Below, one piece after another: positions 3,676 through 44,700 of a DNA stretch of 64,000 nucleotides. Numbering within the stretch: position 1 is the first letter of the stretch; every line of letters starts with the position of its first letter. Source of the DNA: Methanomassiliicoccales archaeon (GTDB lineage Archaea; Thermoplasmatota; Thermoplasmata; RBG-16-68-12; SOIM01); NCBI GenBank assembly GCA_004377185.1, contig SOIM01000025.1:1-64000 (forward strand), given 5' to 3'. Position numbers and translations under genes: made by a program. The notes under the pieces were generated by a model. That model was not told where the DNA came from. It worked only from the letters and a program-made list of their open reading frames with translations, and made no database searches.

Positions 3676-3915
3676 ATGAAAAAATTCGCAACCGAACTAA
3701 GGGGAAAGACTGTCATGACGAATGACGGTCAGATTCTAGGAATGATTGAGAATTTCATAATCGACACCAAGACCGGAAAGCTCCTGGATGTGCTGGTAAT
3801 TCCTGCTGAAGAGATTGAGCCCCGACTGTTCAAGGTGGATGCCCAGGGCAGAATCATACTACCGTTCACCGGGTTGAAGGCGATCAAAGACGTAGTTGTG
3901 ATGAACATAGAGTGA
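3676..3915 (+). CDS. PRC-barrel domain protein
   Basis: A 79-residue single-domain protein with the PRC-barrel signature: an early RGKTVMTNDGQILG turn, then IIDTKTGKLLDVLV, and a C-terminal strand ending VVVMNIE. PRC-barrels occur in photosynthetic reaction centre H subunits, in RimM, and as stand-alone archaeal proteins of unknown role, some linked to cell division (CdpB). A TATA-like CTTTATATAG (3602-3611) lies upstream, leaving a leader of about 40 nt with a purine-rich GAGAAGGG just before ATG. It is monocistronic. Whether it is a CdpB-type division protein cannot be decided here. Confidence 0.88.
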   Translation: MKKFATELRGKTVMTNDGQILGMIENFIIDTKTGKLLDVLVIPAEEIEPRLFKVDAQGRIILPFTGLKAIKDVVVMNIE

Positions 3916-4039
3916 GTTGATCAGCTTCTCCAGCCAGTGAAGTTCTCTTGATTTTGTAATTTAGCAAAGAGAGCTTTCACAACAGCAATCTGGGGTCGTT
4001 AGAAAGTGTAAAATAGTCAATCATGGATACTTCTGGCGT

Positions 4040-4522
4040 ATGGCGTTGGAAGAATGGCACATAGGACTGATTCTCCTGATAGTGGGAGTGTCGATGCTGG
4101 TAGTTGAGGCCGCATCACCAGGTTTCTTCATTGCGATTCCCGCAACCGTGCTCATGGTGCTCGGGGCCATCGGAATGGCGGTTGAAGGATTCTTCTGGAC
4201 ACCCTGGAGCCCCATCGTTGCCGTAGTGGTAGTGATACCCGCCACGATCCTGACCATGAAGTTCTATCAGACCTTGTCTCCGCCAGCACCGCCCACAACG
4301 ACGGTGGGCCATTCGCTCGTGGGACAGACAGGAATCGTAAAGGCTCCCATCGAGCCAAACACAATCAAAGGCAAGGTCAGGATCGAGAATCAGGTTTGGA
4401 GCGCTACATCCGACCGTCATATTGCAAAGGGCGCCTTGGTAGAGGTCGTCCAAAGCAAAGGAGTCCATGTAATCGTCAAAGAGACTGGAAAGACATTATC
4501 TGAAACACCGCGTGAGGGGTAG
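4040..4522 (+). CDS. NfeD-family membrane protein
   Basis: The 160-residue protein has three hydrophobic segments (about 8-25, 30-48, 54-72) followed by a soluble OB-like domain (about 88-150) with VGQTGIVKAPIEP and GALVEVVQSKGVHVIV, which is the NfeD layout. NfeD proteins partner with stomatin/SPFH proteins in membrane microdomains, and the next gene starts 2 bp downstream and encodes one. A TATA-like TAAAATAG lies about 27 bp before ATG 4040. It lacks the N-terminal ClpP-type protease domain of long NfeD, so it is the short form. Confidence 0.92.
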   Translation: MALEEWHIGLILLIVGVSMLVVEAASPGFFIAIPATVLMVLGAIGMAVEGFFWTPWSPIVAVVVVIPATILTMKFYQTLSPPAPPTTTVGHSLVGQTGIVKAPIEPNTIKGKVRIENQVWSATSDRHIAKGALVEVVQSKGVHVIVKETGKTLSETPREG

Positions 4523-4524
4523 AT

Positions 4525-5781
4525 ATGACAAAGAGGTTTCAAGAGGAGAGAGGTATGAGTCTTGTGAGAAAGATGAGTGGTTGGAGGTCCTTGTTCGTCA
4601 TAGGGGGACTGTTTCTGGGGATTGCTCCGTTCTGGATAACCGACATTGCAGCCCAGCTCAATCCTGCCATAATGCTCGGAATCACCTTCCTGGTGATACT
4701 CGCAGTCATTGCGATTCTGGGTGGAGCACTCAAAATCATTCAACCGTACCAGCAGGGTCTGCTGATTGTTCTGGGGAGTTTCAAGAGGGTTCTCAACCCC
4801 GGTGTGAACTTCGTACCGCCCTTAATCTCCCGGGTCATTAGAGTAGATCTGAGAACCCAGGTTCTGGATGTCCCCAGGCAGGAAGTGATCACAAAGGACA
4901 ACTCGCCTACGAACGTCGATGCTATCATCTTTATCAAAGTGATCGATCCCGTCAAATCCTTTTTCGAAGTGGTGGACTACAAGATAGCCACCATAGCGCT
5001 GGCGCAGACCACACTTCGATCAATCATCGGCGATATGGAACTGGACGAGATACTGTACAACAGGGAGAAGATAAATGTCCAACTGAGGGACACACTGGAT
5101 CATGCCACGGACGCATGGGGTGTCAAGGTCGAGGCGGTCGAGATAAGAGAGGTGGATCCGGTCGGAGCAGTGAAGGCAGCAATGGAGGAACAGACCGCGG
5201 CAGAGAGGGAGAGAAGGGCAGCCATCCTGAGAGCGGATGGTGACAAGAAGTCCGCAATCCTCGTGGCGGAAGGTTCGAAAAGGTCAAGAATTCTCAAGGC
5301 AGAGGGTGTGAGACAGGCGAAGATACTGGAGGCAGAGGGTACGAGATTGGCCATCATCCTAGAAGGTCAGGGCGAGGCCCAAAAGCTGAGGATACTGGCA
5401 CTGGGTGCGGCAACCTTGGACTCCAAGGCCCTCACCGTTCTTTCGCTTGACACAGTAAAGACCATGAGCGATGGCCAAGCGACGAAAATCATATTCCCGT
5501 TCGAACTAACGAGGCTAATCGAAGGTGCGAGCGAGTATCTGGGGGTTAGTAGGAAGGTTCCGGAAAGGGAGATTGCGGATTACAGGAACTTGGAGGAGCT
5601 CTTGGGTAAGTCTGATGACGTCCTTGGGCCGATACCCAAACATGCAGAGCTCAAGGCCGAGCTGAAGACAATCGAAAAGCAGATGGAAATGGTCTCCAAG
5701 TCAACAGAAAAGATAGCTCACATTCCTGAAGCTGCCAAGGACCTGAAGAAGATACTGAAGAAAGAGGAAAAGTCCGAATGA
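4525..5781 (+). CDS. SPFH/stomatin-like membrane protein
   Basis: This 418-residue protein is a band-7/stomatin homologue that probably oligomerises on the membrane with NfeD. Two hydrophobic stretches (about 24-43 and 49-70) are followed by the SPFH domain (QQGLLIVLGSFKRVLNPGVNF, then VPRQEVITKDNSPTNVDA) and a long coiled-coil (about 215-300) made of repeated ILxAEGxRxAxIL units. The Glu/Lys-rich tail (350-418) is an extension beyond typical stomatins. It starts 2 bp after the nfeD stop with GAGGGG upstream; a second ATG at 4555 is preceded by GAGGAGAGAGG and is a possible alternative start. Confidence 0.95.
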   Translation: MTKRFQEERGMSLVRKMSGWRSLFVIGGLFLGIAPFWITDIAAQLNPAIMLGITFLVILAVIAILGGALKIIQPYQQGLLIVLGSFKRVLNPGVNFVPPLISRVIRVDLRTQVLDVPRQEVITKDNSPTNVDAIIFIKVIDPVKSFFEVVDYKIATIALAQTTLRSIIGDMELDEILYNREKINVQLRDTLDHATDAWGVKVEAVEIREVDPVGAVKAAMEEQTAAERERRAAILRADGDKKSAILVAEGSKRSRILKAEGVRQAKILEAEGTRLAIILEGQGEAQKLRILALGAATLDSKALTVLSLDTVKTMSDGQATKIIFPFELTRLIEGASEYLGVSRKVPEREIADYRNLEELLGKSDDVLGPIPKHAELKAELKTIEKQMEMVSKSTEKIAHIPEAAKDLKKILKKEEKSE

Positions 5782-5874
5782 ACGCTCTTCCAGGCAAGCT
5801 GTTATCAAATCTGTGAATGAACTGATGAAGGTTAAATAACAAACGTGAATCTATGTCGGTGGGGTTGCTGAACT

Positions 5875-7152
5875 GTGGGGACCTCTGAGAAAATAGGCAT
5901 TCTGCTCTTGGACATGGGGGAGCCGCCCGAATACAATGAGCGCACGTACTACTCCTTTCGAAGTTACGTTGAAGCACTTGTCAACATTGGTTTTGTGGAC
6001 AAGAAGGTTCTGAAGGAGGACAAAGGGACAATATTGCAGAAAAGGGAGAATCTCTTCCCCTACGATAGTACCGCAGGTCCGGAACTGGTCGATGCTTGGC
6101 TCAAGCCTCACAAGGAAAAAGCCTCCACTTCGAGAAAGAAGAAGGGACATCCTAGCATACTCCCACAACTAGTGGACTCCTACTCTTATCTGAAGGCGAA
6201 GGGCCCTGGCAAAGGTGAGCCCGACTTCTACGAGATGTACGGGTTCGAGGTCTGCCGCAGGTGGCAGTTGATGAGGGGTTTCTCGCCCTATTATCACCAA
6301 GCGCTCAAGGTGAAAGAGCATGTCAAGAAGATGCTTGAGAAGAAGTTCGAGGACAAGATAGCGGTGAGATTCGCCTACGGACAGGATCCAGTCCCGCACG
6401 AAAAGGAGCAGACCCCGGACGTAGTCATCAAGAACCTCGTCAAGAAGGACAAGATATCTCACCTGCTGGTCGCGGAGCATATGAATATTTTCAGTGATGT
6501 AACGACCACCCTCTATCTCAGGAAGATGGTGGAGGACGCACTGAAGGAGATCAAATCAAGAATCCCGGTCAGCTACATCAATCAACTGGGCGAGAACGAA
6601 GCGATGAACATGGGACTCATTGCAAAGGTTTCAGATGAACTGAAAATCCTGCCTGAAAGGTCCAAGGTCATGATAGCACTGTCAAACCATGGTCTCCCCC
6701 CTGCAAAGGTCGGTGATTACGATGGGAGCAAAGATTCCTATCACGAGAATGCCGAGAAGGTGTTCCAGGTTGCAAAGAACAAAATCACTCAAACAGTGAA
6801 GAGGAAAGGGCGTCTTGAGGTGGTCCAGGTTTTCGTAAGGCAGATGGCAAGAGGCTTTGAGAACGACACCAAGGTGCTCACGCCCAAGAGGGCTTTGAAC
6901 ATGGCAGTATCCAGAGGGTACAACTACTATATCGACATCCCGTACGAGATGCCTGCGGACGGCGTACACGTTCTTGTGAAGTTGAGACAGTCATATGGCA
7001 TCGATCCCCCAAAATGGAATGCTTCTTACGAGACGAACTTCCCTTACAAGAGTCTGAAGGCAAAGATCACCAGCGCACACTTCTATCCGGAATACAGGAC
7101 TCAGGCTTACTACATGGAGATATGGAATGTGCTGGATGGTCTGCTCGCTTAG
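5875..7152 (+). CDS. Ferrochelatase-superfamily protein, long form
   Basis: The 425-residue protein begins KIGILLLDMGEPPEYN, as ferrochelatases begin with a LLLNxGxP strand. Near residue 264 it has ALSNHGLPPAKVGDY, matching the ferrochelatase signature with the metal-site His. Known HemH proteins insert iron into (proto/copro)porphyrin and are usually 310-350 aa; this one is about 80 aa longer, with extra Lys-rich helices near 60-110. No other heme genes are in the window, so substrate and even chelatase activity are open: it may be a chelatase on another tetrapyrrole. GTG 5875 is the first usable start after TATA-like GTTAAATAAC (5831-5840) and follows GGTGGGG. Confidence 0.75.
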   Translation: MGTSEKIGILLLDMGEPPEYNERTYYSFRSYVEALVNIGFVDKKVLKEDKGTILQKRENLFPYDSTAGPELVDAWLKPHKEKASTSRKKKGHPSILPQLVDSYSYLKAKGPGKGEPDFYEMYGFEVCRRWQLMRGFSPYYHQALKVKEHVKKMLEKKFEDKIAVRFAYGQDPVPHEKEQTPDVVIKNLVKKDKISHLLVAEHMNIFSDVTTTLYLRKMVEDALKEIKSRIPVSYINQLGENEAMNMGLIAKVSDELKILPERSKVMIALSNHGLPPAKVGDYDGSKDSYHENAEKVFQVAKNKITQTVKRKGRLEVVQVFVRQMARGFENDTKVLTPKRALNMAVSRGYNYYIDIPYEMPADGVHVLVKLRQSYGIDPPKWNASYETNFPYKSLKAKITSAHFYPEYRTQAYYMEIWNVLDGLLA

Positions 7153-16312: not shown

Positions 16313-17476
16313 TCAGAACCAATTCAAGTGAAGGCCAAGGAATATCAGGACGATTATGAATCCAATAATGCTCCCGAACAATGCCAGTAGCTTCACCCAG
16401 CTGAGTGGGGCCTCTCCTTGGACTTCGCCAGTCTGACCATTCACAAGGAAATTGTACCGCTTCCTTCGATAGAAGTAGCTTGCCACATAGACGGGTAAAA
16501 GGATGTGCTTCCACTTCGAATCGATTAGTTGGGTACTGACATGCAGACCTCTCTGCGTGTCACCGTCGAGCAGTGTGGAACAGGCTGCCCGCTCGCGATT
16601 GCGAATCGTCAGTTTGGCCGTGTCCCAGAGAACCCATGGCTCTTTGGTGTACTCCTCGGCCCCGAACCCTACAAGGAATTCGGGTCGGTAGCCCACGAGC
16701 GCCGATAGTCTGTAAGGATAAATCTTGTGAAGTATCTCCTCAGGAAGGCCCATGGAGGCATTCACCAGAAGGTCATCGTAGAAAAATGAGTGGTGACCAG
16801 ATCGATAGTTCCAACTAACGTGCTGCACCTGCCTTGTCCTCGTGACAGGGCGCCCATTTACCGTCGTTGTATACGTTTGCGTCGTGTAGTAGTAAGTCCC
16901 CCTCCAGCCGCTCCAGTCCGATTCTGCCTGTGAATCAAAGGTGAAGAAAGGCGCGTACAGACCTTTGACACCAACAAGGGCGGCCGTCTTCTTGAGGTCG
17001 CCTGGCCTGAACCACAACCTCTTGAGCCACTGCAAATACTTGGCCTTGGAATCTTGGGCATTGATCGCAAAGGGCACCAAAGCGGTCGGACGAACGATGT
17101 TTGGATTGCTGGATGTTTCGATGACGGTGTCGGAACCGCAGAAATCGCACTTGGTCGCTATGACCTTCGTATCTACGGATTGTATTGCACCACAGCTGTC
17201 ACATTTGTAAGTCTTCTGCTCGACACCTAAGCCAAAATCAGTCTCGGCCGCAGCAAGAGGGAATTCCTCGATCGTGTGTTCCTCGATCTCCAATAACTCT
17301 GTAGGGATCTCATTCTCAGTGTCGCAGTAGGGACACTTCATCGATAGCGAGCCCGGTTTGTAGGCAAGACCAGCACCGCAGGAAGAACAGCGGAACTCCT
17401 TTGTTTTGTCAGTTTCGATAGAGATTTCGTCCAACGGCAGGGAATCTGCAACGGGCAAATAAAATGTTTGTACCAA
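16313..17476 (-). CDS. Double zinc-ribbon protein with C-terminal membrane anchor
   Basis: The 387-residue protein has two zinc ribbons: CSSC/CPYC (about 30-52) and CDSC/CDFC (about 93-119). A central domain (about 130-355) is rich in aromatic residues (FYAPFFTFDSQ-like, SGWRGTYYY), and a hydrophobic C-terminal helix lies at about 363-385. Related bacterial proteins occur beside SPFH proteins of the YdjI type and are often misnamed as PriA-like. The SPFH gene is 16 bp upstream, so this is the last gene of that operon. The start is TTG 17476, next to GAGAATAATTG and within the intergenic gap. A role as a membrane partner of the SPFH protein is inferred. Confidence 0.82.
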   Translation of the reverse strand: MVQTFYLPVADSLPLDEISIETDKTKEFRCSSCGAGLAYKPGSLSMKCPYCDTENEIPTELLEIEEHTIEEFPLAAAETDFGLGVEQKTYKCDSCGAIQSVDTKVIATKCDFCGSDTVIETSSNPNIVRPTALVPFAINAQDSKAKYLQWLKRLWFRPGDLKKTAALVGVKGLYAPFFTFDSQAESDWSGWRGTYYYTTQTYTTTVNGRPVTRTRQVQHVSWNYRSGHHSFFYDDLLVNASMGLPEEILHKIYPYRLSALVGYRPEFLVGFGAEEYTKEPWVLWDTAKLTIRNRERAACSTLLDGDTQRGLHVSTQLIDSKWKHILLPVYVASYFYRRKRYNFLVNGQTGEVQGEAPLSWVKLLALFGSIIGFIIVLIFLGLHLNWF

Positions 17477-17492
17477 CCACTGCCAGAAGCAA

Positions 17493-18584
17493 TTATTCTC
17501 CTAACTTCTCTCCACACTCATTACAGAACTTGCTTCCCCTGGCCATCTCAGCACCGCACTTCGGACAGGGCACCGCAACAGCCATGGATGTTCCGCACTC
17601 TGGGCAGAACTTGCTTCCCTTAGGTATGAATTCCTTGCACTTCGGGCACTCTATCCCTTTCTCTTGACGGCCCCCGCAGACATTGCAGAACTTGGACCCG
17701 GGTGGGATAATGGCCTTACATTTGATGCAGGGTTCTCCTGGTGCCGCGGAAGGCTGGCGCATGGTATCCGCCATCTGGTAGCCCATTCCTATTCCGGCCC
17801 CAATGCCTACTCCAGCACCCGCACCGCCTCCGGCAGGGTTCTCTGCCGCATCCCGCATTGCCTGACCGGTCTGGTACTGCACATACCCCGTTCCTGTGAT
17901 GGCCATAGATGCCCTTGCGTCCACAGCCTCTTGAACTTCCTCGGGAAGACTGATATTGAGTCCGCTGATCTTGACTATCTCGATCCCAAAGGCGTCAAAG
18001 TGGTCGGTACACTTGGCAAGGATGACCTGCTCGATCTCTTCCAGGTTGGCGGCCAGATCCAGAACCGCCATACCACGCTTCTTTATCTCTCCGAGACTGT
18101 CATAAGTGACGACAACTATCTGTTCTTTGATCCTTTCCTCCACTTGTGCGGCCGTGGTCAGGTTCAGGGTCCCTACGAACTGGTTTATGAAATTCTCAGG
18201 CGAGGAGACCTTGTACCTGAACTCCCCGAAGACCCGCAGACTCACGACATGGAACTCGGGATCCCTGAACTGATAAGGTTGCTTTGATCCGAACTTTCCG
18301 TCGAATGGTCTCTTCTGGATGTAATAGACCTCGGCCCGCTGCTTCACGCCGCTGAGGAGCTTCACGATGGCCCCCACAATGGGAGCGTTGATGCTAGTGA
18401 GAGCGTACCTGTCCGGTCTGTCTATGTATGCCAGAGCTTTTCCGTCCCGGTAGAAGACAGCCATCTCGTCCTCCCTCACCACGATGTTGTCGTTCAGCTT
18501 GATGTTGCGCGGATTGCGCCATACTATGTTACCACGCTTGGTGGCATCTTCCCACGCGAACGTTTTGGACCCGAATAGACTCAT
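17493..18584 (-). CDS. SPFH protein (YdjI type) with three C-terminal zinc ribbons
   Basis: The 363-residue protein has an N-terminal SPFH domain of the virion-core-protein/YdjI group (about 30-225; VVREDEMAVFYRDGKA, IQKRPFDGKFG). A Gly/Ala-rich linker follows (about 250-275), then three tandem zinc ribbons (about 287-310, 315-335, 342-360), each CxxC...CxxC, the last ending CNECGEKLGE. There is no membrane helix, so it is probably peripheral. It overlaps the upstream gene by 4 bp (ATGA), implying translational coupling. In Bacillus, YdjI with PspA-like YdjF (LiaH-related) and YdjG/H forms an envelope-stress membrane complex; this locus has comparable parts. Confidence 0.92.
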   Translation of the reverse strand: MSLFGSKTFAWEDATKRGNIVWRNPRNIKLNDNIVVREDEMAVFYRDGKALAYIDRPDRYALTSINAPIVGAIVKLLSGVKQRAEVYYIQKRPFDGKFGSKQPYQFRDPEFHVVSLRVFGEFRYKVSSPENFINQFVGTLNLTTAAQVEERIKEQIVVVTYDSLGEIKKRGMAVLDLAANLEEIEQVILAKCTDHFDAFGIEIVKISGLNISLPEEVQEAVDARASMAITGTGYVQYQTGQAMRDAAENPAGGGAGAGVGIGAGIGMGYQMADTMRQPSAAPGEPCIKCKAIIPPGSKFCNVCGGRQEKGIECPKCKEFIPKGSKFCPECGTSMAVAVPCPKCGAEMARGSKFCNECGEKLGE

Positions 18585-19108
18585 TTGCTCACCTCCGTCT
18601 TCGTTATTGCGCGCATGCGCTTCTTGAAAGCATCCTCAAAATCGTTCACAAGTGAAAGTAATTTCGATATCTTCTCAGGAACATCATCACCGCCCACTGC
18701 GCTCTTCAGAGCATCCGCCTCCTCACCCATGGTCGCAACTGCGTCAAGCATGGAAAGGTCGTACTCGTACAGGTAGTTCAGTTCGTCCTCCACTATGCGA
18801 ATTGCTGGAGAGATGCCTGAATAGCCGCCTTCGGCATGGCGGACCTTTCCCTCAAGCGATTGGAAGCTATGGATCAACCCTCCGACATCGTCCAGCACGG
18901 CCATTTGATAGTTCTCGGCCAGTGCCTTGCGGGCATCCTCCACCCCTCTCCGGGCCTCCTCGATCATTTCAGCCAACTGCCTGCGGAGCATGTTGTCCGC
19001 TGTGCGTATGTCCTCCCGTCTTCGGTAGCCTGCGAAGCCTGGAACATGTAGTTGTATCCTCTTCAGGAGTCCGCGCTCTTCCTCGACCCTATCCCTCAAA
19101 TCTGGCAT
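18581..19108 (-). CDS. Helical coiled-coil protein of the SPFH operon
   Basis: The 175-residue, entirely helical acidic protein has no membrane segment. It begins MPDLRDRVEEERGLLKRI and has Arg/Glu-rich heptad stretches at about 35-70 and 135-165. It might do a job like PspA or LiaH, but sequence similarity to ESCRT-III/PspA proteins is not evident by eye. ATG 19108 is chosen over the longer frame to 19162 because a TATA-like TTCTTATCC lies near 19145. Its stop overlaps the start of the SPFH gene. The upstream neighbour is the LiaF-type membrane gene (64 bp away). Confidence 0.78.
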   Translation of the reverse strand: MPDLRDRVEEERGLLKRIQLHVPGFAGYRRREDIRTADNMLRRQLAEMIEEARRGVEDARKALAENYQMAVLDDVGGLIHSFQSLEGKVRHAEGGYSGISPAIRIVEDELNYLYEYDLSMLDAVATMGEEADALKSAVGGDDVPEKISKLLSLVNDFEDAFKKRMRAITKTEVSK

Positions 19109-19172
19109 TATGAGCACCCATGTAGATAACAGAAGCTGTGGATAAGAATGTTTTGATATCATCCAAGTGTGG

Positions 19173-19382: not shown

Positions 19383-19589
19383 GTGTTATGTATCCGAGAC
19401 GGGGAATAAATAGGTAACCCCATTACCGTCCCAAAATCACCTCTGTTAAAGATGAAAAGATGAGCCAGCACGTTAGGGAAATGGCAATTAAACGAAAAGC
19501 CTTCCAAATTCTATTAATAAGACATATGTCCATATCAGCGGCCTGGTGGGCAACTTTGAGATTGGCCTGCAGCACGTGAGGGCTGTTTC

Positions 19590-22500
19590 ATGTCAGAGCG
19601 TAAGTGGAGGAGCTTCGCAGGATTGGGATTGGTGGGCTTGCTATTTGTCGGGTTGTTAATAGTTCCTCAGGAAGCCAAAGCTCAACCGGAGATTGATTAC
19701 ATTCTAATTAGGGATGCAGCGAATGGACTTGGCTCAGTAGTAGGCAATCGAACCTACATATCAGGGCAAAACGATACTTACTACGCAGCAGGGTACAACA
19801 ATACCGCGGGATATGTGAAAGATGTGGTGGCTTATTGGGGGAGCGGAAACGAGGATGTCATCCATGTGATTGGGAAGGAGGGAAATTCAACTATCTGCGT
19901 GGCCGTTGAATATGGGACAACAAGAGTCCATTTAATGACATTCGGGATTGGCAATAATCTGACATCCTCCACTGGTAACCTCACCGTCATCTCGGACATA
20001 GACTATGTCATCCTGAGGAATGAATCAGGTGGAGGCGGAGAGTGGTTCGGTGACACTGTCATAATGACTGAGACATTCTTTGTCATATATGCCGCGGGGT
20101 ACAATAACACCCAAGGCTATAGGAGGGCTGTACCAGTTGATTGGTCAACCACAAACAGCACACTATGCAATGTGGGATTCAGAAAGAATCCGTATGTAAA
20201 CATCATAGCCCAAGGCGTGGGAACTTGCAAAATAACAGGCACCTATTCTCCTGGGATATCCAATACCACAGGTCTTATCACAGTGATTACGGACATTGAC
20301 TACATTGTAATTCGGGATGCACCGCTGGGCGGGGGGTCTGTAGTTAAGAACCTTACGTACACCTTGGATCAGATCGACGAATTCTTCGCTGCTGGGTACA
20401 ACAATACACTTGGTTATATGAGGGATGTGGGGGCCTATTGGTTCTCAAGCAACACCTCGGTCTGCACCGTATCCCCTGGACCATGGTCAAAGGGAATACT
20501 CACTTTCAATAATGATGGATACTGTAAGATAACTGCCAACTATGATTGGATTGCTTGGAACATCACCGGTACGATTACTGTCCTCTTTGACATCGACTAC
20601 TTGGTCATTCGGGATGCTCCAGCTGGCGGTGGCCAACCTGCTGTGGGAAAAATTCTCTATGTGGATTACTACTATAGTTTCTATGCTGCTGGATACAACG
20701 ACACCGATGGTTTTAGGCGGGACCTTTCTGTGCAATGGACCAATTCTAACACTGCCGTATGCAAACCCAAATCAGTAACAGGAAAACAGTACAAGTTGGA
20801 GACATGGCTCACAGGTAGCTGTCGTCTCACCGCAACCTTCAAGTCAAGAGTCACGAACGGCACAGGCGACATGACAATACTTCTCGATATCGACTACATA
20901 ACTATCAGAACCGCTGCTGGCGGTGGGGGCAATGCCCTCGGCAACAAGACTCTCTACACCTACCAGACTTACATCTTCTACGCAGCAGCCTACAATACCA
21001 CAACAGGCTATATGAAGGACGTTTATGCGACATGGACGAGCTCCAATACTTCAATATGCCCCTTTCAGAGGCTTACTGTTGATGGGGATCCCATCAGAGT
21101 GATACCTCCCTTGCCAGGAACATGCAATCTCACAGCTGATTTCAGGGGCTTGGTTTCCAACAAGACCGGTGTCCTAACGGTCATATTTGACATAGACTAC
21201 ATCATTATCCGAGATGGTTCCTCCGGTGGCGGAAGTCCAGTGGTCGATAGAACATATTTCACAGGACAGAGCACACGATACTATGCTGCAGGATACAACA
21301 ACACTACGGGCTATCGTCGCGATCTGGTTCCAACCTGGTGGAGCAATAATACGGGTGTGTGCCCAGTGGATGTCAATGGAAGGGTCAAATTCTGGGACGA
21401 GGGCGTATGCAGAATCACAGCGGACTTCCATGGTTTGGTTGTGAATAGTACGGGTAACGTGACCGTGGCATGGGACATCGACTATCTGGTCGTGGTCGAC
21501 AAGCAGGATGGGGGTGGGAATCCGGTTGGAGAGCGAACGTACCTTTTGGACTCCGAGGAGTACTTCTATGCGGCTGGTTACAACGATTCTTTGGGTTATA
21601 GAAGGGATTTGATACCCATTTGGTCGAACTCCAACACGACTGTGTGCAACATCTTTCCCTTTTCAAACGGTCCTGTCAGATTCCGTGCGCAATCGATAGG
21701 ATATTGCAGAATCTCGGCCACCTATCTTGGCAGAGTCTCAAATTCTACAGGCAATCTAACGGTTGTGTCGGAGATAGATTACATAGTCGTCAGGGATGGG
21801 CCTAGCGATTCGGGGGACTGGGTGGAAGATAGGGACTACCCCATTTTCATCCAGGACAAATTCTACGCCGCAGGCTACAACAACACCAGAGGTTTCGTAG
21901 AGGATTTGGAGGTCATATGGACCACTAACAACTCTGCTAGTTGTGGATTGAGCCATGACCCCGAAGACAAAACCTATGTTATCTTCAGAGCGAAAGCATT
22001 TGGCTACTGCAAAGTAACGGCAAACTATCATGGCATTATTTTCAACTCCACAGGCTTGCTTCACGTGATTCCCAGACCGATTATCATTGTAGATGACGAT
22101 GGTAGTGGGGACTACCTTACGATTCACGAGGCTCTGGAAGAGGCTGTAGATGGAACAATCATCAGGGTTCTCAATGGAACATACTTCGAACATGTTGTGG
22201 TGAACAAGTCGGTTCTCATAGAAGGTCTGGACAAATCAAATACTTGGGTCAACGGCAGCGGATATGGAACAGTTTTCTTGGTCACTGTAGATAATGTCCG
22301 AATAACAGGCCTTACTATCGAATCTTCCGAGTACGGAGTCTTTCTAGAACATGTGAAATCCGCCAGTATAGACCACAACACAGTGCGATGGTACGATTAC
22401 GGCATCTACAGCAACTATTCGAAAGGAACTCACATTGAGAAGAACCTCGTGACAGAGGGTTCTAATGGCATAGTGACGGTCCACTCCGACAATGATGCAG

Positions 22501-23963
22501 TTTGGCACAACGAAATCTCCTACAATGATGTTTACGGAGCAAAAGACTATGATTCGGAGTTAAGCAAATGTTTTAACTGGAACTACTTCCACCACAACAA
22601 GATTGCGTACTACTACGACCCAGACGAGGACCTCGAACCACTAATATTGGACAGCAATGTCTTCGAAGACAATGAGATTGCAATCCTCGTAGAGTATGCC
22701 TCAACAATTCACATAACCAACAACACCGTGCTACGCGGTGAGAAGGGAATTTCCATATTGAATGGATCGCCGTTTGTGGAAAACAACTCCATTTCAGATG
22801 TGATCTACGGAATAGAGCTCATAGATTCCTCAAGCTACATTCTTGGGAACGTGATTGAGAACTCAACTATTGGCATCATGGCAACCAGAGAATCGCCGAT
22901 AATAGAGGGAAACATCATTCGTGATTCTGATGTGTACGCGCTCAGGCTTGAAGAGGTGGGAAATGCTTCCGTCTCATCGAATGATTTTGGCATCGGTAGG
23001 GCGATCATATCCAACTCGACCTTGAACCAGTTGCAGGTGCAGAATGGAACCATACAGTTGATTAACTCCTCATGGGAAGAACTGGACATCGGTGAAGGGG
23101 GGACGGTAGAAATCAGATGGTGGATTCGGTTGCAGATATTGTCGGAAGGGGGAGAGCCAATTCCCGGAGCAAGTCTGAAAATCGTGGATTCTCAAAACAA
23201 CATCATTGCGGAATTCCTATCGGATGAAGAAGGTCTGACACCTTTGATAGATGCAATTCAACAAAGGATTGATGAGACCGGGACACTTGACTTGGATTCC
23301 TACCTCGTGGAGGTTGTAGTTGACGGAAGAAGACAACAGTTCGAGCTGACTGTGGACTCAAATCGTATCTTCTCGTTAGGCCTCCTACCGCCCACCTCGG
23401 AACAGCCTTGGCTATTATTCGCAGTAATCGTCATTGCCGTAGCGGCTCTTTGTTTCGCCCCTGCTACAACTATCGAAAGAAGTCGTTATGCCCTACTGAC
23501 AGTGTTCATGCTGTTCTACGTCAAACTGAAGAAAGAGGACGTCTTGGAGCAATTCACTCGGGGCAGAATCTACGGATACGTTGAAGCAAACCCTGGGGAA
23601 CATTTCGGAGCCATCAGGAAAGCTCTTTCACTTTCCAATGGGAATACTGTTTACCATTTGCAGGTATTGGAAAGACAGGGATTTATCAAATCAAAGAACG
23701 ATGGAATGTACAAGAGGTTCTATCCCAAAGGTGCGGTCCTGCCTCCAGACAACAGCGCCCCATTGCCGGAAATCCATCAACGAATTCTCTCTTGTATTGG
23801 TGAAGCACCCGGGATAAGTCAGATGGAAATTGCGACTCTCTTGGGCCTGCATCAGTCGACCTTAGAATATCAGCTGAAGAAACTGGCGAAGACTGGGCTC
23901 ATTAGGCGAAAAAGAAGTGGACGAAGAGTATGCTATTATGGAACGAAACTAGCCAAGAAGTAG
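19590..23963 (+). CDS. Giant membrane-tethered transcription regulator: 8 extracellular repeats, beta-helix, TM, two winged helices
   Basis: The 1457-residue protein starts with a signal peptide (about 9-31). Eight tandem repeats of about 95-100 residues span about 35-825. Each opens with (D/E)IDY(I/V/L), carries a YAAGYNxTxGY core, a W.S.N.S.C strand and a C.(I/L).A.(Y/F) strand, so most repeats hold two Cys that could pair. Next is a right-handed beta-helix like NosD (about 832-1180; VDDDGSGDYLTIHEAL then NN/NT rungs), a small beta domain, a membrane helix (about 1273-1293) and two cytoplasmic winged-helix domains (about 1317-1455; NTVYHLQVLERQG and STLEYQLKKLAKTG recognition helices). Many N-x-T sites fit outside exposure. 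It probably reads an external ligand or surface and acts directly on DNA. TATA-like TATTAATAAG lies near 19513. Confidence 0.88.
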   Translation: MSERKWRSFAGLGLVGLLFVGLLIVPQEAKAQPEIDYILIRDAANGLGSVVGNRTYISGQNDTYYAAGYNNTAGYVKDVVAYWGSGNEDVIHVIGKEGNSTICVAVEYGTTRVHLMTFGIGNNLTSSTGNLTVISDIDYVILRNESGGGGEWFGDTVIMTETFFVIYAAGYNNTQGYRRAVPVDWSTTNSTLCNVGFRKNPYVNIIAQGVGTCKITGTYSPGISNTTGLITVITDIDYIVIRDAPLGGGSVVKNLTYTLDQIDEFFAAGYNNTLGYMRDVGAYWFSSNTSVCTVSPGPWSKGILTFNNDGYCKITANYDWIAWNITGTITVLFDIDYLVIRDAPAGGGQPAVGKILYVDYYYSFYAAGYNDTDGFRRDLSVQWTNSNTAVCKPKSVTGKQYKLETWLTGSCRLTATFKSRVTNGTGDMTILLDIDYITIRTAAGGGGNALGNKTLYTYQTYIFYAAAYNTTTGYMKDVYATWTSSNTSICPFQRLTVDGDPIRVIPPLPGTCNLTADFRGLVSNKTGVLTVIFDIDYIIIRDGSSGGGSPVVDRTYFTGQSTRYYAAGYNNTTGYRRDLVPTWWSNNTGVCPVDVNGRVKFWDEGVCRITADFHGLVVNSTGNVTVAWDIDYLVVVDKQDGGGNPVGERTYLLDSEEYFYAAGYNDSLGYRRDLIPIWSNSNTTVCNIFPFSNGPVRFRAQSIGYCRISATYLGRVSNSTGNLTVVSEIDYIVVRDGPSDSGDWVEDRDYPIFIQDKFYAAGYNNTRGFVEDLEVIWTTNNSASCGLSHDPEDKTYVIFRAKAFGYCKVTANYHGIIFNSTGLLHVIPRPIIIVDDDGSGDYLTIHEALEEAVDGTIIRVLNGTYFEHVVVNKSVLIEGLDKSNTWVNGSGYGTVFLVTVDNVRITGLTIESSEYGVFLEHVKSASIDHNTVRWYDYGIYSNYSKGTHIEKNLVTEGSNGIVTVHSDNDAVWHNEISYNDVYGAKDYDSELSKCFNWNYFHHNKIAYYYDPDEDLEPLILDSNVFEDNEIAILVEYASTIHITNNTVLRGEKGISILNGSPFVENNSISDVIYGIELIDSSSYILGNVIENSTIGIMATRESPIIEGNIIRDSDVYALRLEEVGNASVSSNDFGIGRAIISNSTLNQLQVQNGTIQLINSSWEELDIGEGGTVEIRWWIRLQILSEGGEPIPGASLKIVDSQNNIIAEFLSDEEGLTPLIDAIQQRIDETGTLDLDSYLVEVVVDGRRQQFELTVDSNRIFSLGLLPPTSEQPWLLFAVIVIAVAALCFAPATTIERSRYALLTVFMLFYVKLKKEDVLEQFTRGRIYGYVEANPGEHFGAIRKALSLSNGNTVYHLQVLERQGFIKSKNDGMYKRFYPKGAVLPPDNSAPLPEIHQRILSCIGEAPGISQMEIATLLGLHQSTLEYQLKKLAKTGLIRRKRSGRRVCYYGTKLAKK

Positions 23964-27491: not shown

Positions 27492-30400
27492 TTATTGTAG
27501 AACGTTCCACATGACGTTTGAATCCACGTAGATCCAGTAGCCGCGCCCTGCCACCATTACGTCCGTGTCCAGAAGAGCTTTCAGATAATATGGTCCGGTA
27601 GTACTGTCATATCCCTCAATCCTAAGCGCTCCGATATCAACTTTCAGCTGCCCAACGGTGTAGATAGGGTTGAAAGACGGGAAGGAAACGAGATTCCATC
27701 CGGCATACAACTGTATCTGTGTGGCAACAGGAACAAGTCCTGCAACAACCCAATCATCATCGGCCAGTACGTTCACCCAATAGGCGTTGTAGCGGTCGAT
27801 GCTCCAAAGGTCTCCTTTGTGGGGTTTCTCTTCCATGTACGATTTCCACGGATCCGCGGTATCTGAGGAATCATGCGTCCAGACCCTGTCGAATTGAATG
27901 GTTTGGAGAACTGTACTGATCGAGGTGTCCGTCAAATCCAGTGGTAGAGAGATAAGCTGCACGCCAGTGGTCAAATGCTTCACGAACTTGGCTGCTTTGT
28001 TCGGGGTTGGAGAATACTCCACTCCGTTGTAGGCCCTTACGTAGAAGAATATGTTACTCGTGTTTCCGTATCCACATCCAACGCATGTCCACTGGTAGGT
28101 GGGTGAATCGGTTGCTGGGATTGTGGTCTCCAGATTATAAGGTCCAATACTGAGATAGCCGACATAGAGCTCGTAGTTGACCACGTTGTCCAGACCAATA
28201 CCGTCATCCCCAGACCTTGCCCATGTGACAAGTATGTCCCCAAGCCCGAGACCGGTCAGCTCTGCATCCATCATCACGGGCGGGGCCGGCCCGAAGGCCA
28301 CCACATCGAGCTCTACGCAATCCGCACTGGAAAGGTTGTAGTTAGACCATGAGTCTTCTGCGTATACGCAAATCGTATGCAAACCCAGCGACCAAGTGGA
28401 TGTGTCAATCAAATATGTGACGTCCTCAAGAGGCCCATCGTAGGTGCCGTCCACAGGCAACATGGGTGTGCTGGTGACCCAGTTCGTGATCCCGTCCGTG
28501 AAGTTGGCACTGACGATGTTCTGGTTCCCGGTGTTCACATCGGAAATCGTTGCGTTCAGGTACACAGGATCTCCAAAGAGAACGGTAGTGGATTTGGAGT
28601 TGTTGACCAGTACGTTCAGAACCTCCGGAGCCAGGTTGTCCACAATGGTCAGAGTCACACACGCACCCGTCATATTGAGGTTGGGTACGTTATCCCTGGC
28701 ATAGACGCAGTACTGATAGGATCCAGGCCAGTCTGGCGTTGTCACAATCCCTTGGACATCCTCGACCGAGTTGTTGTAAATAAAGTCGAGCGGCCACAAC
28801 TTGGTGCTAGGCCAATTGGCCAGTCCTAATGTGTAGTTCGCATCTTGGATATTGTTATTACCTCTGCTGGTGTCGTCAATCGTTGCACTCAAAATGAAGT
28901 CTGGCGGTTTGGCAGAGAAGTCAAATGATGCCCCTGGGAGTCCGTTGATGAATACATCATAGATATCAGGTGGCCAGAGGTCAGAAGAAATGATTATGGT
29001 TGCGCATGGACTGGTCACGTTGATGTTGCTGGCTACATCCGAAGCGAAGACACATAAGTCATAGGAAGCTTCGGCCCAGAGAGTCGTATCAATTGCGGCA
29101 GTGGCATCCTCAATGAGGCTGTCAAATGCGCCATCTGCAGCAGACATAGCACCGCTTCCGCCAGTTCCAACTATCAGGTAACTTGCGTTCTGCACGTTGG
29201 ATTCGAGGTCCTCAATGGTCGCCGTCAGAGTAACCAGAGTCCCGGCCATCACGACAACGGAGGGCAAACCGTCCACCAACACGTTGTAGATCATGGGAGG
29301 ATCGTTGTCAATTGGAGTGCTAGTAATCGTCAGTGATGCACATAGACCGGTGGTGTTTCGTTTGGCCGACGCATCCCACGCATAAACGCAGACATCATAA
29401 GTAGCGTCCGACCAGCCAGCAGTATTGATGTCTTTTGTGGCACCTTCTATGGGGCTGTCAAATGCTCCGTCTTGAGGATCCATATCTATGCCGGGCCAAT
29501 TGCCCTGTCCGACCGTGTAGTTCGCTCCAGCTATGTCCGAGTTGCCCGTGTTGCTGTCGTCAATATCTGCAGTGAGAACCACCACATCACCAGGATTGAC
29601 AGTCTTGGATGGTTGACCATCAAGTAGGACGTTGGAAATCTCAGGAGGTTCATTATCAACAGGAGCAGAACCAATGACGAAATCTGCGTCGCTTATCACA
29701 CAATTGCTTTGACCCACACTATCGATTGCGCACACTCTGACCCTGCATTTGTTGGAGTCCACGTTCGGAGTGGTCCAGATATAGTACCCGTCATTCGGTT
29801 CATTGGTTGCGATTGTGACCCAAGTTGGAGATACAGAGTCTATGGTGTAATCAATCGACGTCACTGACAATTCGGGCATTTCAACGTCGTTCGCGTACCA
29901 TCGTATTTCGTAAACGGTCATCTTGGCAATGACCTCTCCACCGTCAGGTTGCAGGACATCAACATGTGGAGGGGTTGCGCCGTCGAGCCAGTCCAGCATG
30001 TCCCTCATCAGTGTCTCTTCCGTGCTGTCACCATCCTTGACATCGGTGGCTTCGAAATAGTCAAATGCATCGTATATGACGCGGGAATCCGGATCGTGAT
30101 CCGCCCTGATGCCAGCAATGTCGGTCGGATTGGATGAATAGACAAAAATCTCGGTTGATCCAGATGTGCCAATGATGTCGGGCGAACTGTGCGTGATACC
30201 TAAGTTTGAGATTCCGTTCGTGATTGGGTCACCAGGTATGCCATCCACTTGGTTGTCCCCTGAGGTGTCAGCGACGAAGGTCGCGTGAAGATTGTCGTTC
30301 AGCCAGGTAGTCCATCCATTGATGTTTGCATCGTTTGCGATTTCCTCGCCTGAGAAAAGGAAGTTTCCTGTGCCACCAAGATGGGTCTCAATGGCAGTAC

Positions 30401-31556
30401 GCGACGTCGCTGAGAGCGAGGTACTGTCGGTACTTGTGAACCAGACCACGGCAGGGTATTCTGAGATGTCGCTGTATGTTGGCTTAGCCCTGTAGTTGTC
30501 CATTTCAGTGTCCAGCATCTTATTCTCATATGAGTCCCAATTGGCGTGTGGTACGCTTCCCTTCACCAAGATTTCATCATATGTGTCGAATTCGTATGCG
30601 TAGTTGTCATTGTCATTCTCGTCAACGAGGAGAACACCGTCAGGTACGAAATTCAATGCCGCTGCCTGCAGAATAGCATAATTGGTGCGCCACGCCATAC
30701 TTGGTAGGTACATAAAACCAATTCCATTGTGCGTCTGTACAAAAACGGCAATCCCAAGAGTACGGATGTCCCACCCCGCTTGAATGGTGAATGTCCGCTC
30801 AATGTCGAGTGTGTCACCAACATCATCGAAGCTTGCAGGAACGGCATAATCAGTGAGAATGGTCCTCACAACTTGGTTGTACACCCTGTGGTGCCCATAG
30901 GTCTCGCTCGCAATCGGCAGATAGATGTTGCTTTCATAGACCATGAACGTGACGTACATATTGTCCTCGCCAATCAGATCAGTTGCTTCGATGTGAGCCA
31001 GAACTCTTCCTTCGGTGCTGGTTAGATTCCCTGTTAGGGATATTGTCAGGTTCGTTGTTCTGTCCTTTTCCGCTTGGTAGGCGTCTCTGTCATCATGATA
31101 CCTCTGCCACTTGGTGGTTCCACCGGATGCCCATAGAGTTGCTCCAGCAACGCCATTTCCACCAGCGTCGCCCTTGTAGTAGCCCCCTCCGTCCACAATC
31201 ATTGTCGGATATCCCGTAACGCCGTACCATAGCCTCCTGGTATTACTGGGGGAATAGTATATCGCGTCCGAACTTGAAGGATGATGCTCCAGAACAATGA
31301 TGTTGTCCGTCCCAAGCTCATCATGCAACCGATTGACAGCGAAAGCCTGAGGGGGGCAATACGGACACCAATCGGCGGTGAACAACTCCAAGACGACCGT
31401 TCTCTCGCTGGAACCATCGATACAAGCATTTGCAATAGGTTCCTCAGGAGCATTAGGTTCCGTCTCAGGTAGAGACCCTATCACAACCGCGAATGTGCCC
31501 GAAAGCATCACAACAGCCACAAATGAAGCCCACAAGATACGAGAATGTGCCCGCAT
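27492..31556 (-). CDS. Giant secreted protein: thioredoxin-fold N terminus, four Ig-like repeats, Fn3, C-terminal GWNL module
   Basis: The 1354-residue protein starts at ATG 31556 with GGAGG upstream. A signal peptide (about 1-28) leads into a thioredoxin-fold domain (about 45-180) with active site ADWCPYCPP and cis-Pro GYPTM, resembling Omp28-type proteins. A Rossmann-like domain follows (about 320-510; FLFSGEEIAND, VIYDAFDYFEA). Then come a domain at about 525-625 and four Ig-like repeats of about 110 aa (about 630-1075), each with PPEIxNVLxxGxPS, GxxDSPIEDA and a CVYAxD strand. A Fn3-like domain precedes the C-terminal pair TGVQLISLPL and AGWNLVSFPS (about 1195-1354), shared with 7161-9071. 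It is presumably a surface oxidoreductase or adhesin. Confidence 0.85.
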   Translation of the reverse strand: MRAHSRILWASFVAVVMLSGTFAVVIGSLPETEPNAPEEPIANACIDGSSERTVVLELFTADWCPYCPPQAFAVNRLHDELGTDNIIVLEHHPSSSDAIYYSPSNTRRLWYGVTGYPTMIVDGGGYYKGDAGGNGVAGATLWASGGTTKWQRYHDDRDAYQAEKDRTTNLTISLTGNLTSTEGRVLAHIEATDLIGEDNMYVTFMVYESNIYLPIASETYGHHRVYNQVVRTILTDYAVPASFDDVGDTLDIERTFTIQAGWDIRTLGIAVFVQTHNGIGFMYLPSMAWRTNYAILQAAALNFVPDGVLLVDENDNDNYAYEFDTYDEILVKGSVPHANWDSYENKMLDTEMDNYRAKPTYSDISEYPAVVWFTSTDSTSLSATSRTAIETHLGGTGNFLFSGEEIANDANINGWTTWLNDNLHATFVADTSGDNQVDGIPGDPITNGISNLGITHSSPDIIGTSGSTEIFVYSSNPTDIAGIRADHDPDSRVIYDAFDYFEATDVKDGDSTEETLMRDMLDWLDGATPPHVDVLQPDGGEVIAKMTVYEIRWYANDVEMPELSVTSIDYTIDSVSPTWVTIATNEPNDGYYIWTTPNVDSNKCRVRVCAIDSVGQSNCVISDADFVIGSAPVDNEPPEISNVLLDGQPSKTVNPGDVVVLTADIDDSNTGNSDIAGANYTVGQGNWPGIDMDPQDGAFDSPIEGATKDINTAGWSDATYDVCVYAWDASAKRNTTGLCASLTITSTPIDNDPPMIYNVLVDGLPSVVVMAGTLVTLTATIEDLESNVQNASYLIVGTGGSGAMSAADGAFDSLIEDATAAIDTTLWAEASYDLCVFASDVASNINVTSPCATIIISSDLWPPDIYDVFINGLPGASFDFSAKPPDFILSATIDDTSRGNNNIQDANYTLGLANWPSTKLWPLDFIYNNSVEDVQGIVTTPDWPGSYQYCVYARDNVPNLNMTGACVTLTIVDNLAPEVLNVLVNNSKSTTVLFGDPVYLNATISDVNTGNQNIVSANFTDGITNWVTSTPMLPVDGTYDGPLEDVTYLIDTSTWSLGLHTICVYAEDSWSNYNLSSADCVELDVVAFGPAPPVMMDAELTGLGLGDILVTWARSGDDGIGLDNVVNYELYVGYLSIGPYNLETTIPATDSPTYQWTCVGCGYGNTSNIFFYVRAYNGVEYSPTPNKAAKFVKHLTTGVQLISLPLDLTDTSISTVLQTIQFDRVWTHDSSDTADPWKSYMEEKPHKGDLWSIDRYNAYWVNVLADDDWVVAGLVPVATQIQLYAGWNLVSFPSFNPIYTVGQLKVDIGALRIEGYDSTTGPYYLKALLDTDVMVAGRGYWIYVDSNVMWNVLQ

Positions 31557-31695
31557 TTTCACTCCTCCATTCATAGAATGGCATAGATTGAATCCACCTG
31601 ACACTATATCAATATTACTGCGTTATAATGGCCAACGATTCGGAGCCTTCCAGTTTGATAAGGTTTTTATTTGCAGAGAACGGTTATCCAAAACC

Positions 31696-41742: not shown

Positions 41743-44700
41743 TTACTTCTCTGCTCTGACTGGGTCCAGTAGTATTCCACGGTCAGCGTCGCCCAGGTCT
41801 ATGTCATAGAAATAGGTCACGAGCTCGGGGTCCACGTTGACAACGATGCTCTCCCAGTACTGTCCTTTTACATGCCTGAGGAATACGAGCTCCTGCACGT
41901 CCGTTCCGTAAACGATGTCGTCCCAGTAGTCTCCGTCGACATCACCGACCCTAATCGAGTAGACGTCTCCCGATGTCGTTGCGACAGTGGATCGGGCCCA
42001 GGAACCTCTGGACTGTCCATTTATCCATATGTACACGCTGTTGTCGGTGGTCCCAGCGGCAACGTCAAGATAATCGTCAGAGTTGAAGTAGCCTATGTCC
42101 ACGGTCAGAGCATTGGCGGTCGCTGTCAAGGAGTCAGAGGCGGTCCAGCCTGCTCCGTAGTATACTCTCACGAAAGGATTGGCTGCAAACCCGCAGACGA
42201 TGTCATTCACACCATCTTCGTCTATGTCTCCGACCGCAACATCATTCACGACAGCACCAACATTGATCTTGGTCAAGGTGGGAATCACTATGATCCTGTC
42301 GATTCTCATGTAGTCCACATGGACGGTGTCGTTGTTGAGGTGGTTGACTGTACCGTCGGTGTCGATCACTCTTATGTACACTGTGTTGCCTCCAATCGAT
42401 GTCGGCATTGATGCAGACTGAGCCTTGTCATCGTCTGTGGCCTTGGACACAATGAGGAGGTCGGACCAAGGACCGCCCGCATTCAGCGAGTACTGGAACT
42501 TGAAGTTGTCTCCCTCAACGTTTGTCGGGCGATAAGCCTCTACGTAGAACTTGTATGCGTCTCCGAAAGCAGCAGGTGAGTCGAACGTCCATACGTGGTC
42601 GAGTGTGCTTGTCTGGCCGCTCTGGCGGCTGACTCCTACATACAAATGGTCAATCTTGAAAGAGGTGAGAGTCCCGTCCGACTTTCCGTCTGTGGGATTC
42701 CAGGTAATGTCAGTGTCGCGCACATAGATGTAGAGCTGTCCTCCACTGAAGCCTCTGGCAGTCAAATTCCAGGTAACAGTTGTCTCGGTCGTCGAGGTAA
42801 ACTGCCAAGGCCAATCAAAAGCAGCGTCATAGTATCCCACAGCGAATGGTTCAGTGCTCGCACCACTATCAGGCGTCAGGAAACCAGTAATCGTCAAGGT
42901 AACGATATCTCCGGGCTGAACACTTACATTGCCCATGTTGTATGCGTGTCCAGAATCATCAGAAAGGCCGGAATCCCTATACAGATACCTCGTCTTCGGA
43001 CCGTCGACATAAGGTTTTTCAGTGAGAATCTCATAAACTCCGTCGTCCGCGTGAGTATCAGAGTAGATTCCGGTCTTAGTCCCTACGTTTGGCATTTGTT
43101 CACTTGTGGCACTGTAGATAGTTGTGATGTATGCATCCCCAGTTCCTTCTCTCAGCACTTCGCGGACGTTATCAGAAGCCTTTGTATCTAAATAGCTTCC
43201 GGTGACAATCGAACCTATGTTCGTCGTTTCACTGAGGGCGTAGTATGGATTCGAACTGGTTACACCAAATGTGCCATTATTATTCTGGTAGACCCTTATC
43301 TTGTTGTCACTGCAAGCAGCCACGATATCGAGGAGCTCGTCACCTACCACATCCGCCAGCTTGATCGCATTTACAGAGGCACCCACGCTGTCAACCAAAG
43401 TCGGCGCCCAGGCCGCCCCGTTCCTGTACCACCAAATCTGACCATTGGTAGCACCTGCGACTATGTCTGGATCATTGTCTTTGTCCACATCTCCGGCATC
43501 GATTCCATTGACAGGCGAATCAATGTTGTCAATCTCGTACCTTGTCCAGAGCTCTCCCTCGCCTGCAATGTTTCGGTACCAATATACGTATCCAGCTTCG
43601 ATTCCCACAGCAACGTCCAAGTCCTGGTCCAAGTCCAAGTCAGAGAATACCACAGACAAGAATGCGCCACCGCCCCACGGAGGTTGTTTCTGGCTTGGGA
43701 AAGGTTCGAACTCCTGGATTGAAGACCTCGGGAAGAGAGGTGCCACATTGTCATAGAAGAAAGCGTAGTACTTCTTGTCGTGCGTGGGATGAGCGAACTC
43801 TTCCACAACGGTTGCTATGTCCAGGTTCCACCGCGGCCCATTGACCTTGATCTGCATGGATAGAGCCAGCATGTATTCTTCATCGTCATCCACCAGGCTA
43901 CGCACCCAGAATCCGTAATAGTTGGCTCCCTGCAACCAGGGGTCAATGTTCGGCTTGGAGAGGTCGATGGTGAATTTGTAGCTCGTTGTCGAGTTGTACT
44001 GGGTATCGCCGACCGGCGTTACACCCGGTGGAGCCCAAACCTGCTTTCCGCCCACATAATCCTCGATGATGACATCGCCAATATCAACCTCTCCCATATC
44101 GGTATTGGCCGTCTTCACAATTATCTTGACGTACACCATATCAGTGAAATTGAATTCGCTGCAAGGAACCAAATGGTCAGGATCGCTGAAGGTCAGCAGA
44201 TCTGGATATTCGGGAATATTGCCGTCCTCGTCCGTGATGTTGAGCCTGTCAACGGTGTGGAACCTGTTTCCATAGGTGTCCCTGATCGTAACCTCCAATG
44301 GGTACCTACCGTAGTCAAGCTTGCCATCGCCACACCCAATCACTTCGCTAGTAGTATTCCATATGTAGATGAACACCGTCCATTTCCCAACAGCATCTAA
44401 GAATATGAAGGCATCAGTGGAAGATGGAGTCGTAGCTGGTCCAGGTGCAGGCGCGCAATAGACCTGTGGAACGCCCTGGCTATTGTAGAGCATAAACGAG
44501 TTCTCTTCATCATTGGCCTCGAGCGTCTTGGAAGCCACCAGGACAACTACTATCTCTCCCTTCACGAACTGCCTAGTGGAGTTGGATTGCCATCTCCTGC
44601 TCTGCCATTCGGTATAGTTGAAGACATCGAACCTCTGCAGCCTGTTGCCGAAGCTGAGGTTGCCGGGTCCTCCTGGAGGCAGTGTCAGGTTCTGTTGGAG

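Follow-up and report, generated by a model that had tools for sequence, protein, structure and literature searches.

ToxR, TcpP, and CadC are single-pass, membrane-anchored regulators in which an OmpR-type winged helix occupies the cytoplasmic N terminus and a sensory domain lies outside, at the C terminus. Transmembrane transcription regulators (TTRs), defined as polypeptides with at least one transmembrane region plus a DNA-binding domain, are reported in bacteria and archaea and are mostly single-pass; a survey counted 4 (±2) of them for each archaeal genome (Demey et al. 2023, PMC10269533). In Sulfolobus, ArnR and ArnR1 are one-component, membrane-bound helix-turn-helix (HTH) regulators; ArnR lacks a large ectodomain and consists of an N-terminal HTH, a HAMP and a sensor domain, and a pair of membrane helices at the C terminus (PMC6396743). 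Since membrane-anchored transcription regulators are already known (PMC10269533, PMC6396743), the principle is not new. Here, we analyzed a 64,000-nucleotide stretch of an uncultured Thermoplasmatota archaeon (labeled Methanomassiliicoccales; assembly GCA_004377185.1, contig SOIM01000025.1, positions 1 to 64,000; hereafter the window), in which a single open reading frame (ORF) of 1457 codons with an ATG start encodes a signal peptide, eight Ig-like repeats, a beta-helix, a membrane helix, and two C-terminal winged helices (Table 1). Sequence comparison and structure modeling indicate that the product is probably a membrane-anchored one-component transcription regulator, in which a change outside the cell would pass through the membrane helix and an adjoining helix bearing a Glu and a PLY motif to the tandem winged helices.

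By domain content the protein fits the TTR definition, having a transmembrane helix (residues 1273–1292) and two winged helices that score above Pfam cut-offs; like TTRs, it unites both in one polypeptide with no kinase. Consistent with the original prediction of a path lacking a kinase step, Pfam found no HisKA/HATPase or receiver match in the protein, which sets it apart from two-component sensor kinases. It differs from the surveyed TTRs in belonging to a receptor family with tandem C-terminal winged helices and in the abundance of that family. Six Thermoplasmatota genomes contained 27, 15, 36, 53, 32, and 28 matches to its C-terminal output module, many in frames of 300–2467 residues, versus 4 (±2) TTRs; these genomes were chosen partly for their many copies and represent the upper range rather than the average, and some of the frames are short and probably soluble. 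Compared with ToxR, TcpP, and CadC, the order is reversed: a cleavable signal peptide leads, and two MarR/ArsR/Lrp-like winged helices stand at the C terminus with hardly any linker to the membrane. The order is also the reverse of that in ArnR, and no HAMP domain was found by Pfam. Within the open-access literature searched, three features are new: a reversed order combined with a very large ectodomain, an output of tandem winged helices accompanied by an invariant juxtamembrane element, and how large the family is in this phylum. No paper found there describes the architecture, and these proteins do not appear to have been described as a family of receptors.

A regulatory role is suggested by the winged helices. 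The first falls in PF24266 (HTH_HVO_0163_N), matched at residues 1323–1380 with 60.4 bits against a cut-off of 31, and the second gave an HTH_24/MarR-type match above the Pfam cut-off (residues 1394–1443). PF24266 is shared with HVO_0163-type HTH proteins, although many ORFs of that family encode only 170–250 residues; the open-access literature searched yielded no experimental study of this family, none of PF24266/HVO_0163 as a regulator, and none of COG3398. An AlphaFold2 model of residues 1165–1457, built on an alignment of 52 rows, reached a mean predicted local distance difference test (pLDDT) score of 88.1, and both winged helices were complete with two-stranded wings, most blocks exceeding a pLDDT of 90. 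Foldseek aligned them with MarR (3bpx, 29% identity over 65 columns, 1.2 Å) and ArsR (6j05, 26%, 1.5 Å). By sequence, the module profile matched 5duk (E 8e-12) and archaeal Lrp-type, MarR, and ArsR DNA-binding proteins in the PDB, and both wings are basic, carrying +4 and +6 in 15 residues. Thus, the two winged helices of the original prediction were confirmed at the level of fold, and the C terminus was not modeled as anything else. Full-length, eight-repeat orthologs of 1456–1460 residues in two related genomes (G001 and G004; 65–66% identity overall, with the start region MSxxxWRS common to all three) support the exact ORF and the domain order that had been proposed, and comparison with them gave far fewer nonsynonymous than synonymous changes (pN << pS) in each folded domain.

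The membrane region is predicted to place these domains inside the cell. The proposed signal peptide was recognized, by inspection and hydropathy, from a basic n-region, a hydrophobic core, and a cleavage-like site, AKA-Q, and is likely cut after AKA. The single membrane helix of the original prediction was recovered at residues 1273–1292; what had not been listed is a second hydrophobic helix just inside the membrane. Here Glu1296 is invariant in 48/48 relatives, and a PLY motif, LFY in the window protein, is present in nearly all. Residue 1312 is Lys or Arg in 48/48 relatives and residue 1299 is basic in 41/48, with only 12 hydrophobic residues between them. Because this short stretch, bounded by conserved basic residues, follows the invariant Glu, a second full crossing, which would put the DNA-binding domains outside, is disfavored, and the juxtamembrane helix is more likely in-plane or re-entrant. 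We therefore read the region as a single crossing and then a helix lying in the membrane, an arrangement that would keep the winged helices inside. This topology, with the N-terminal part out, is also supported by charge: the ectodomain carries a net −62 and the C-terminal 162 residues +15, and the charge just after the membrane helix averages +2.4 in the 48 relatives versus −0.75 on the outer side (16 scorable). No asparagine sequons occur in the last 147 residues, against 45 in the ectodomain. The output module is much better conserved than its anchor: identity between orthologs is 74–81% in the first winged helix and 74–79% in the juxtamembrane helix, versus only 35–55% in the membrane helix; among relatives as well, the spanning helix is poorly conserved in the alignment, unlike Glu1296.

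We propose the following model. The signal peptide would export the N-terminal 1240 residues as a glycosylation-prone arm of disulfide-braced Ig units that extends away from the membrane, borne on the beta-helix and a small sandwich near the membrane. A single helix would cross the membrane and leave both winged helices seated on its cytoplasmic face, with hardly any linker. An outside trigger (a glycan, surface partner, or ion binding at the beta-helix, or a pull on the Ig arm) would be relayed by the membrane helix and then by the conserved Glu/PLY juxtamembrane helix. The tandem winged helices, predicted to bind DNA and regulate while tethered, would then shift their placement or pairing and alter promoter binding. 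Several observations weigh against this model. With a predicted template modeling score (pTM) of only 0.45, the C-terminal model leaves the mutual placement of its domains uncertain, though their folds are confident. ScpB, ESCRT-II, and SelB, whose winged helices bind protein or RNA, are among the top Foldseek matches; the analysis turned up no conserved operator or target gene; and, given the second hydrophobic helix, there is a small chance that the number of crossings is even, with the winged helices then outside.

Tethering might also be temporary, with a signal triggering cleavage near or within the membrane helix and freeing the tandem winged-helix piece as a soluble regulator. Genes for an intramembrane protease of presenilin/SPP type (PF06550, E 7.4e-75) and for M50 site-2-type proteases are present in the archaeon's own genome, and a freed module could function, since PF24266 frames of only about 170–250 residues are common in the phylum. 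However, proteases of these types are common and carry no evidential weight (M50 was found in 14/14 control genomes), and the strict conservation of the juxtamembrane Glu and PLY helix suggests that the protein works close to the membrane. We therefore regard cleavage as unlikely, although it is the leading alternative, and retain regulation by a tethered protein as the preferred model.

The outer arm consists of eight tandem repeats starting at residues 34, 136, 235, 334, 433, 534, 629, and 728, with units of 95–102 residues and a mean pairwise identity of 40%. Repeats 6–7 were modeled by AlphaFold2 with a pLDDT of 97.5. Their top PDB match by Foldseek was the Big_2 protein LigA of Leptospira (E 4.4e-12), followed by S-layer Ig domains, and the repeat sequence profile also matched LigA/LigB (E 1.9e-5 to 3e-3). 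Despite a Pfam Big_2 (PF02368) score of 12.0 bits, below the cut-off of 22.8, and weak matches in only 2/54 units, the models and profiles thus place the repeats in the Big_2 fold with a distant sequence relation. LigA and LigB are surface proteins that, to our knowledge, are not fused to DNA-binding domains; the receptor repeats differ from theirs in being archaeal and in having a paired Cys arrangement. The original prediction was of eight folded Ig-like repeats with two disulfide-forming Cys each. The number and the fold hold; a Cys pair at equivalent places is confined to repeats 2–8, and repeat 1 has a single Cys at a nonequivalent position. Across 54 repeat units, the second Cys was present in 31/31 units having the first, an alternative pair (columns 38/53) occurred together in eight, and many units had no Cys. 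Because Cys appear and vanish in pairs, disulfides are likely. The exported part contains 45 N-X-S/T sequons versus 14.0 ± 3.2 in shuffles. Separately, a set of other Ig-repeat surface proteins (L143, L146, L149–L151, and L153) was observed to have a common short C-terminal tail (...ERYG...W.G......GI.EML......GRY...DWKK), which may be a further cytoplasmic element attached to these repeats.

The NosD-like beta-helix of the original prediction is matched by PF05048 (NosD) at residues 885–1012 (59.8 bits versus a cut-off of 23.6). As to the NosD role in copper loading alongside a nitrous-oxide reductase cluster, no nos-type genes were recognized among the neighbors in a Pfam scan, although a search aimed at such genes was not made. 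Among receptors combining Big_2 repeats with NosD, about 340 residues of the beta-helix align collinearly, with the repeat number varying from 2 to 18. The beta-helix is the best-conserved outer part, with 77% identity between the window protein and each ortholog versus 62–63% in the repeats. For this reason, our best guess for the ligand or contact site is a patch within it, with the consensus GAKxY...CFNWN.F..N.IAY..DP among relatives; the patch includes Cys994, the sole Cys of the window's beta-helix, which is present in all 15 compared. Between the beta-helix and the membrane lies a CnaB-like sandwich, absent from the original list of domains.

The receptor is one of a large family rather than unique. 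A search of its own genome (2.64 Mb, 60 contigs) with the C-terminal 177 residues returned eight other strong copies of the output module (E <1e-20), most of them under quite different ectodomains. The module was present in 55/61 related genomes, its own included, several of which are incomplete metagenome-assembled genomes (MAGs). Named matches came nearly all from Thermoplasmatota MAGs, with record labels of Thermoplasmata, Methanomassiliicoccales, or Euryarchaeota; PF24266 was found in 98/116 sampled genomes of the phylum, with control matches also in Haloferax volcanii, Methanosarcina acetivorans, and Methanocaldococcus jannaschii. All 48 scanned relatives (48/48) had both winged helices and a PF24266 match, and their outer domains included NosD (14), PKD (10), He_PIG (9), FG-GAP (8), Big_9 (7), and others. 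Constant winged helices beneath differing outer domains are what sensor-output modularity predicts. One module copy, at L097 (CP070825, labeled Candidatus Aminicenantes bacterium), sits beside a bacterial-looking Ser/Thr kinase with TPRs and reflects either gene transfer or a binning error.

Retention of a two-domain module under very different outer domains also argues against reading the protein as an adhesin of the surface or S-layer, with cytoplasmic winged helices that would bind proteins or anchor DNA to the membrane but regulate no specific genes. The Ig arm does resemble adhesin and S-layer domains by Foldseek, surface proteins of another family have the same repeats but no winged helices, and some winged-helix folds bind proteins. 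Nevertheless, the module's best sequence matches are transcription regulators (5duk, Lrp, MarR, and ArsR) and its wings are both basic, making this explanation quite improbable. An assembly or frame artefact joining the genes of a surface protein and an unrelated regulator, for which no support was found beyond the unusual size that prompted the idea, is refuted by the orthologs: the fusion recurs in independent genomes, including single-contig assemblies (G001 and G060), and in a four-repeat, 1085-residue paralog in the same genome.

The search for the repeat family in related archaea that the original prediction had called for yielded the eight-repeat orthologs and receptors with 2–18 repeats, and further genomes have the Ig/beta-helix plan with between two and five repeats. 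On a module tree made by a quick method, with long branches flagged, 16 members of the Ig/beta-helix branch group together (Shimodaira-Hasegawa-like approximate likelihood ratio test, 84), which suggests that ectodomain type and output module were mostly inherited together. Four clustered G060 genes with 4–18 repeats are placed elsewhere on this tree, at a cost of two label changes; this perhaps reflects a second joining of an Ig/beta-helix ectodomain to the module, and a single origin remains compatible with the tree. The G060 cluster (contig 1, 2020000–2060000; L141 and L142) comprises receptor genes of 1278, 1641, 1665, and 2463 residues, with up to 18 Ig repeats, and adjoins NosD and Ig-repeat surface genes without winged helices. 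At L014, an MMPL transporter gene (3780–6734, plus strand; PF03176, E 3e-101) is flanked by two receptor genes of the family, an arrangement seen in several related loci; in the receptor's own genome, the paralog on contig C47 adjoins an MMPL transporter and another module protein.

Table 1. Predicted features of the receptor gene (positions refer to the window)
Feature	Residues	Position	Strand	Basis
Whole gene, giant surface-receptor transcription regulator (predicted)	1457 in total	19590..23963	+	Single ORF, full-length orthologs
BRE/TATA-like promoter element TTCCAAATTCTATTAATA		19502..19519	+	Alignment with G001 and G004 upstream regions
Signal peptide, Sec type	1–32	19590..19685	+	Inspection of sequence, hydropathy
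Eight tandem Big_2-type Ig-like repeats	34–827	19689..22070	+	Repeat alignment, AlphaFold2, Foldseek, profile search
NosD-type parallel beta-helix	828–1167	22071..23090	+	PF05048; collinearity in Big_2 + NosD receptors
Conserved beta-helix patch, GAKDY...CFNWN.F..N.IAY.YDP	983–1011	22536..22622	+	Alignment of beta-helices
CnaB-like beta sandwich, membrane-proximal	1173–1254	23106..23351	+	AlphaFold2; Foldseek SpyCatcher-type matches; weak CarboxypepD_reg
Transmembrane helix	1273–1292	23406..23465	+	Hydropathy, alignment, AlphaFold2
Short juxtamembrane helix with Glu1296 and LFY (family PLY)	1296–1310	23475..23519	+	Alignment, AlphaFold2
Winged helix 1, PF24266	1315–1379	23532..23726	+	Pfam, AlphaFold2, profile search
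Winged helix 2, MarR/ArsR-like	1394–1451	23769..23942	+	Pfam, AlphaFold2, Foldseek, profile search

A transcription factor B recognition element (BRE)/TATA-like element begins 88 bases upstream of the ATG and aligns with versions TTCCAAACTTTATTAATA and TTCCAAACTTTACTAATA upstream of the orthologs in G001 and G004; we infer that it serves the gene as its own promoter. A scan for sigma-70-type promoters gave no match, as expected for an archaeon. Directly after the TATA-like box is a 10-base palindrome, GACATATGTC, that is not visible in the orthologs. The upstream neighbors, on the opposite strand, are SPFH/zinc-ribbon genes: three adjacent genes (window 16313–19162, minus strand) for a coiled protein, an SPFH/Band 7 protein with double zinc ribbons, and a zinc-ribbon membrane protein. 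Other neighbors encode an acidic surface protein, a ParB-like protein, and, about 60 bases downstream, a GNAT acetyltransferase that may be co-transcribed with the receptor gene, although nothing ties its function to the receptor. In the 20 kb surrounding each ortholog, the sensor was the sole match; other neighbor matches were scattered, mainly small shadow frames, and a neighbor-family search around about 60 relatives returned chiefly shared orthologous regions and antisense frames. Since the neighbors are not conserved beside either ortholog and the receptor gene has its own conserved promoter-like element, the earlier suggestion that neighboring surface genes could be its targets found no support and was rejected. 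Elsewhere in the window, two very large surface proteins were noted by inspection only: one of 1290 residues with a pilin-like N terminus and FG-GAP-like repeats (41743–45615, minus strand) and one of 1370 residues with a thioredoxin-like N terminus (27492–31604, minus strand).

In sum, archaeal environmental sensing is mostly poorly known, and the number of these receptors relative to two-component systems varies among genomes. The receptor's own genome has three response-regulator and three HisKA matches versus about nine module proteins, and G060 has five and three, respectively, versus 27 module matches; G432 and G462 have roughly equal numbers of two-component domains and module matches, and replacement of kinases is therefore not general. 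More tentatively, and with somewhat less than even confidence, we suggest that a Thermoplasmatota-wide superfamily of modular one-protein receptors forms a main surface-to-gene route, in which a fixed output unit (membrane helix, invariant Glu and PLY helix, and two winged helices at the inner face) would be combined with ectodomains of many kinds (the Ig arm with its beta-helix, FG-GAP, PKD, and others). Each genome would have tens of such receptors, more than its histidine kinases and response regulators in several lineages, and the Ig/beta-helix branch would read its signal at the Cys994 patch. The very short link from the membrane to the first winged helix sharpens the question of how a tethered regulator reaches DNA. 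Collectively, a kinase-free receptor family of this kind would offer a direct and testable route from a change outside the cell to a promoter by way of one membrane helix.

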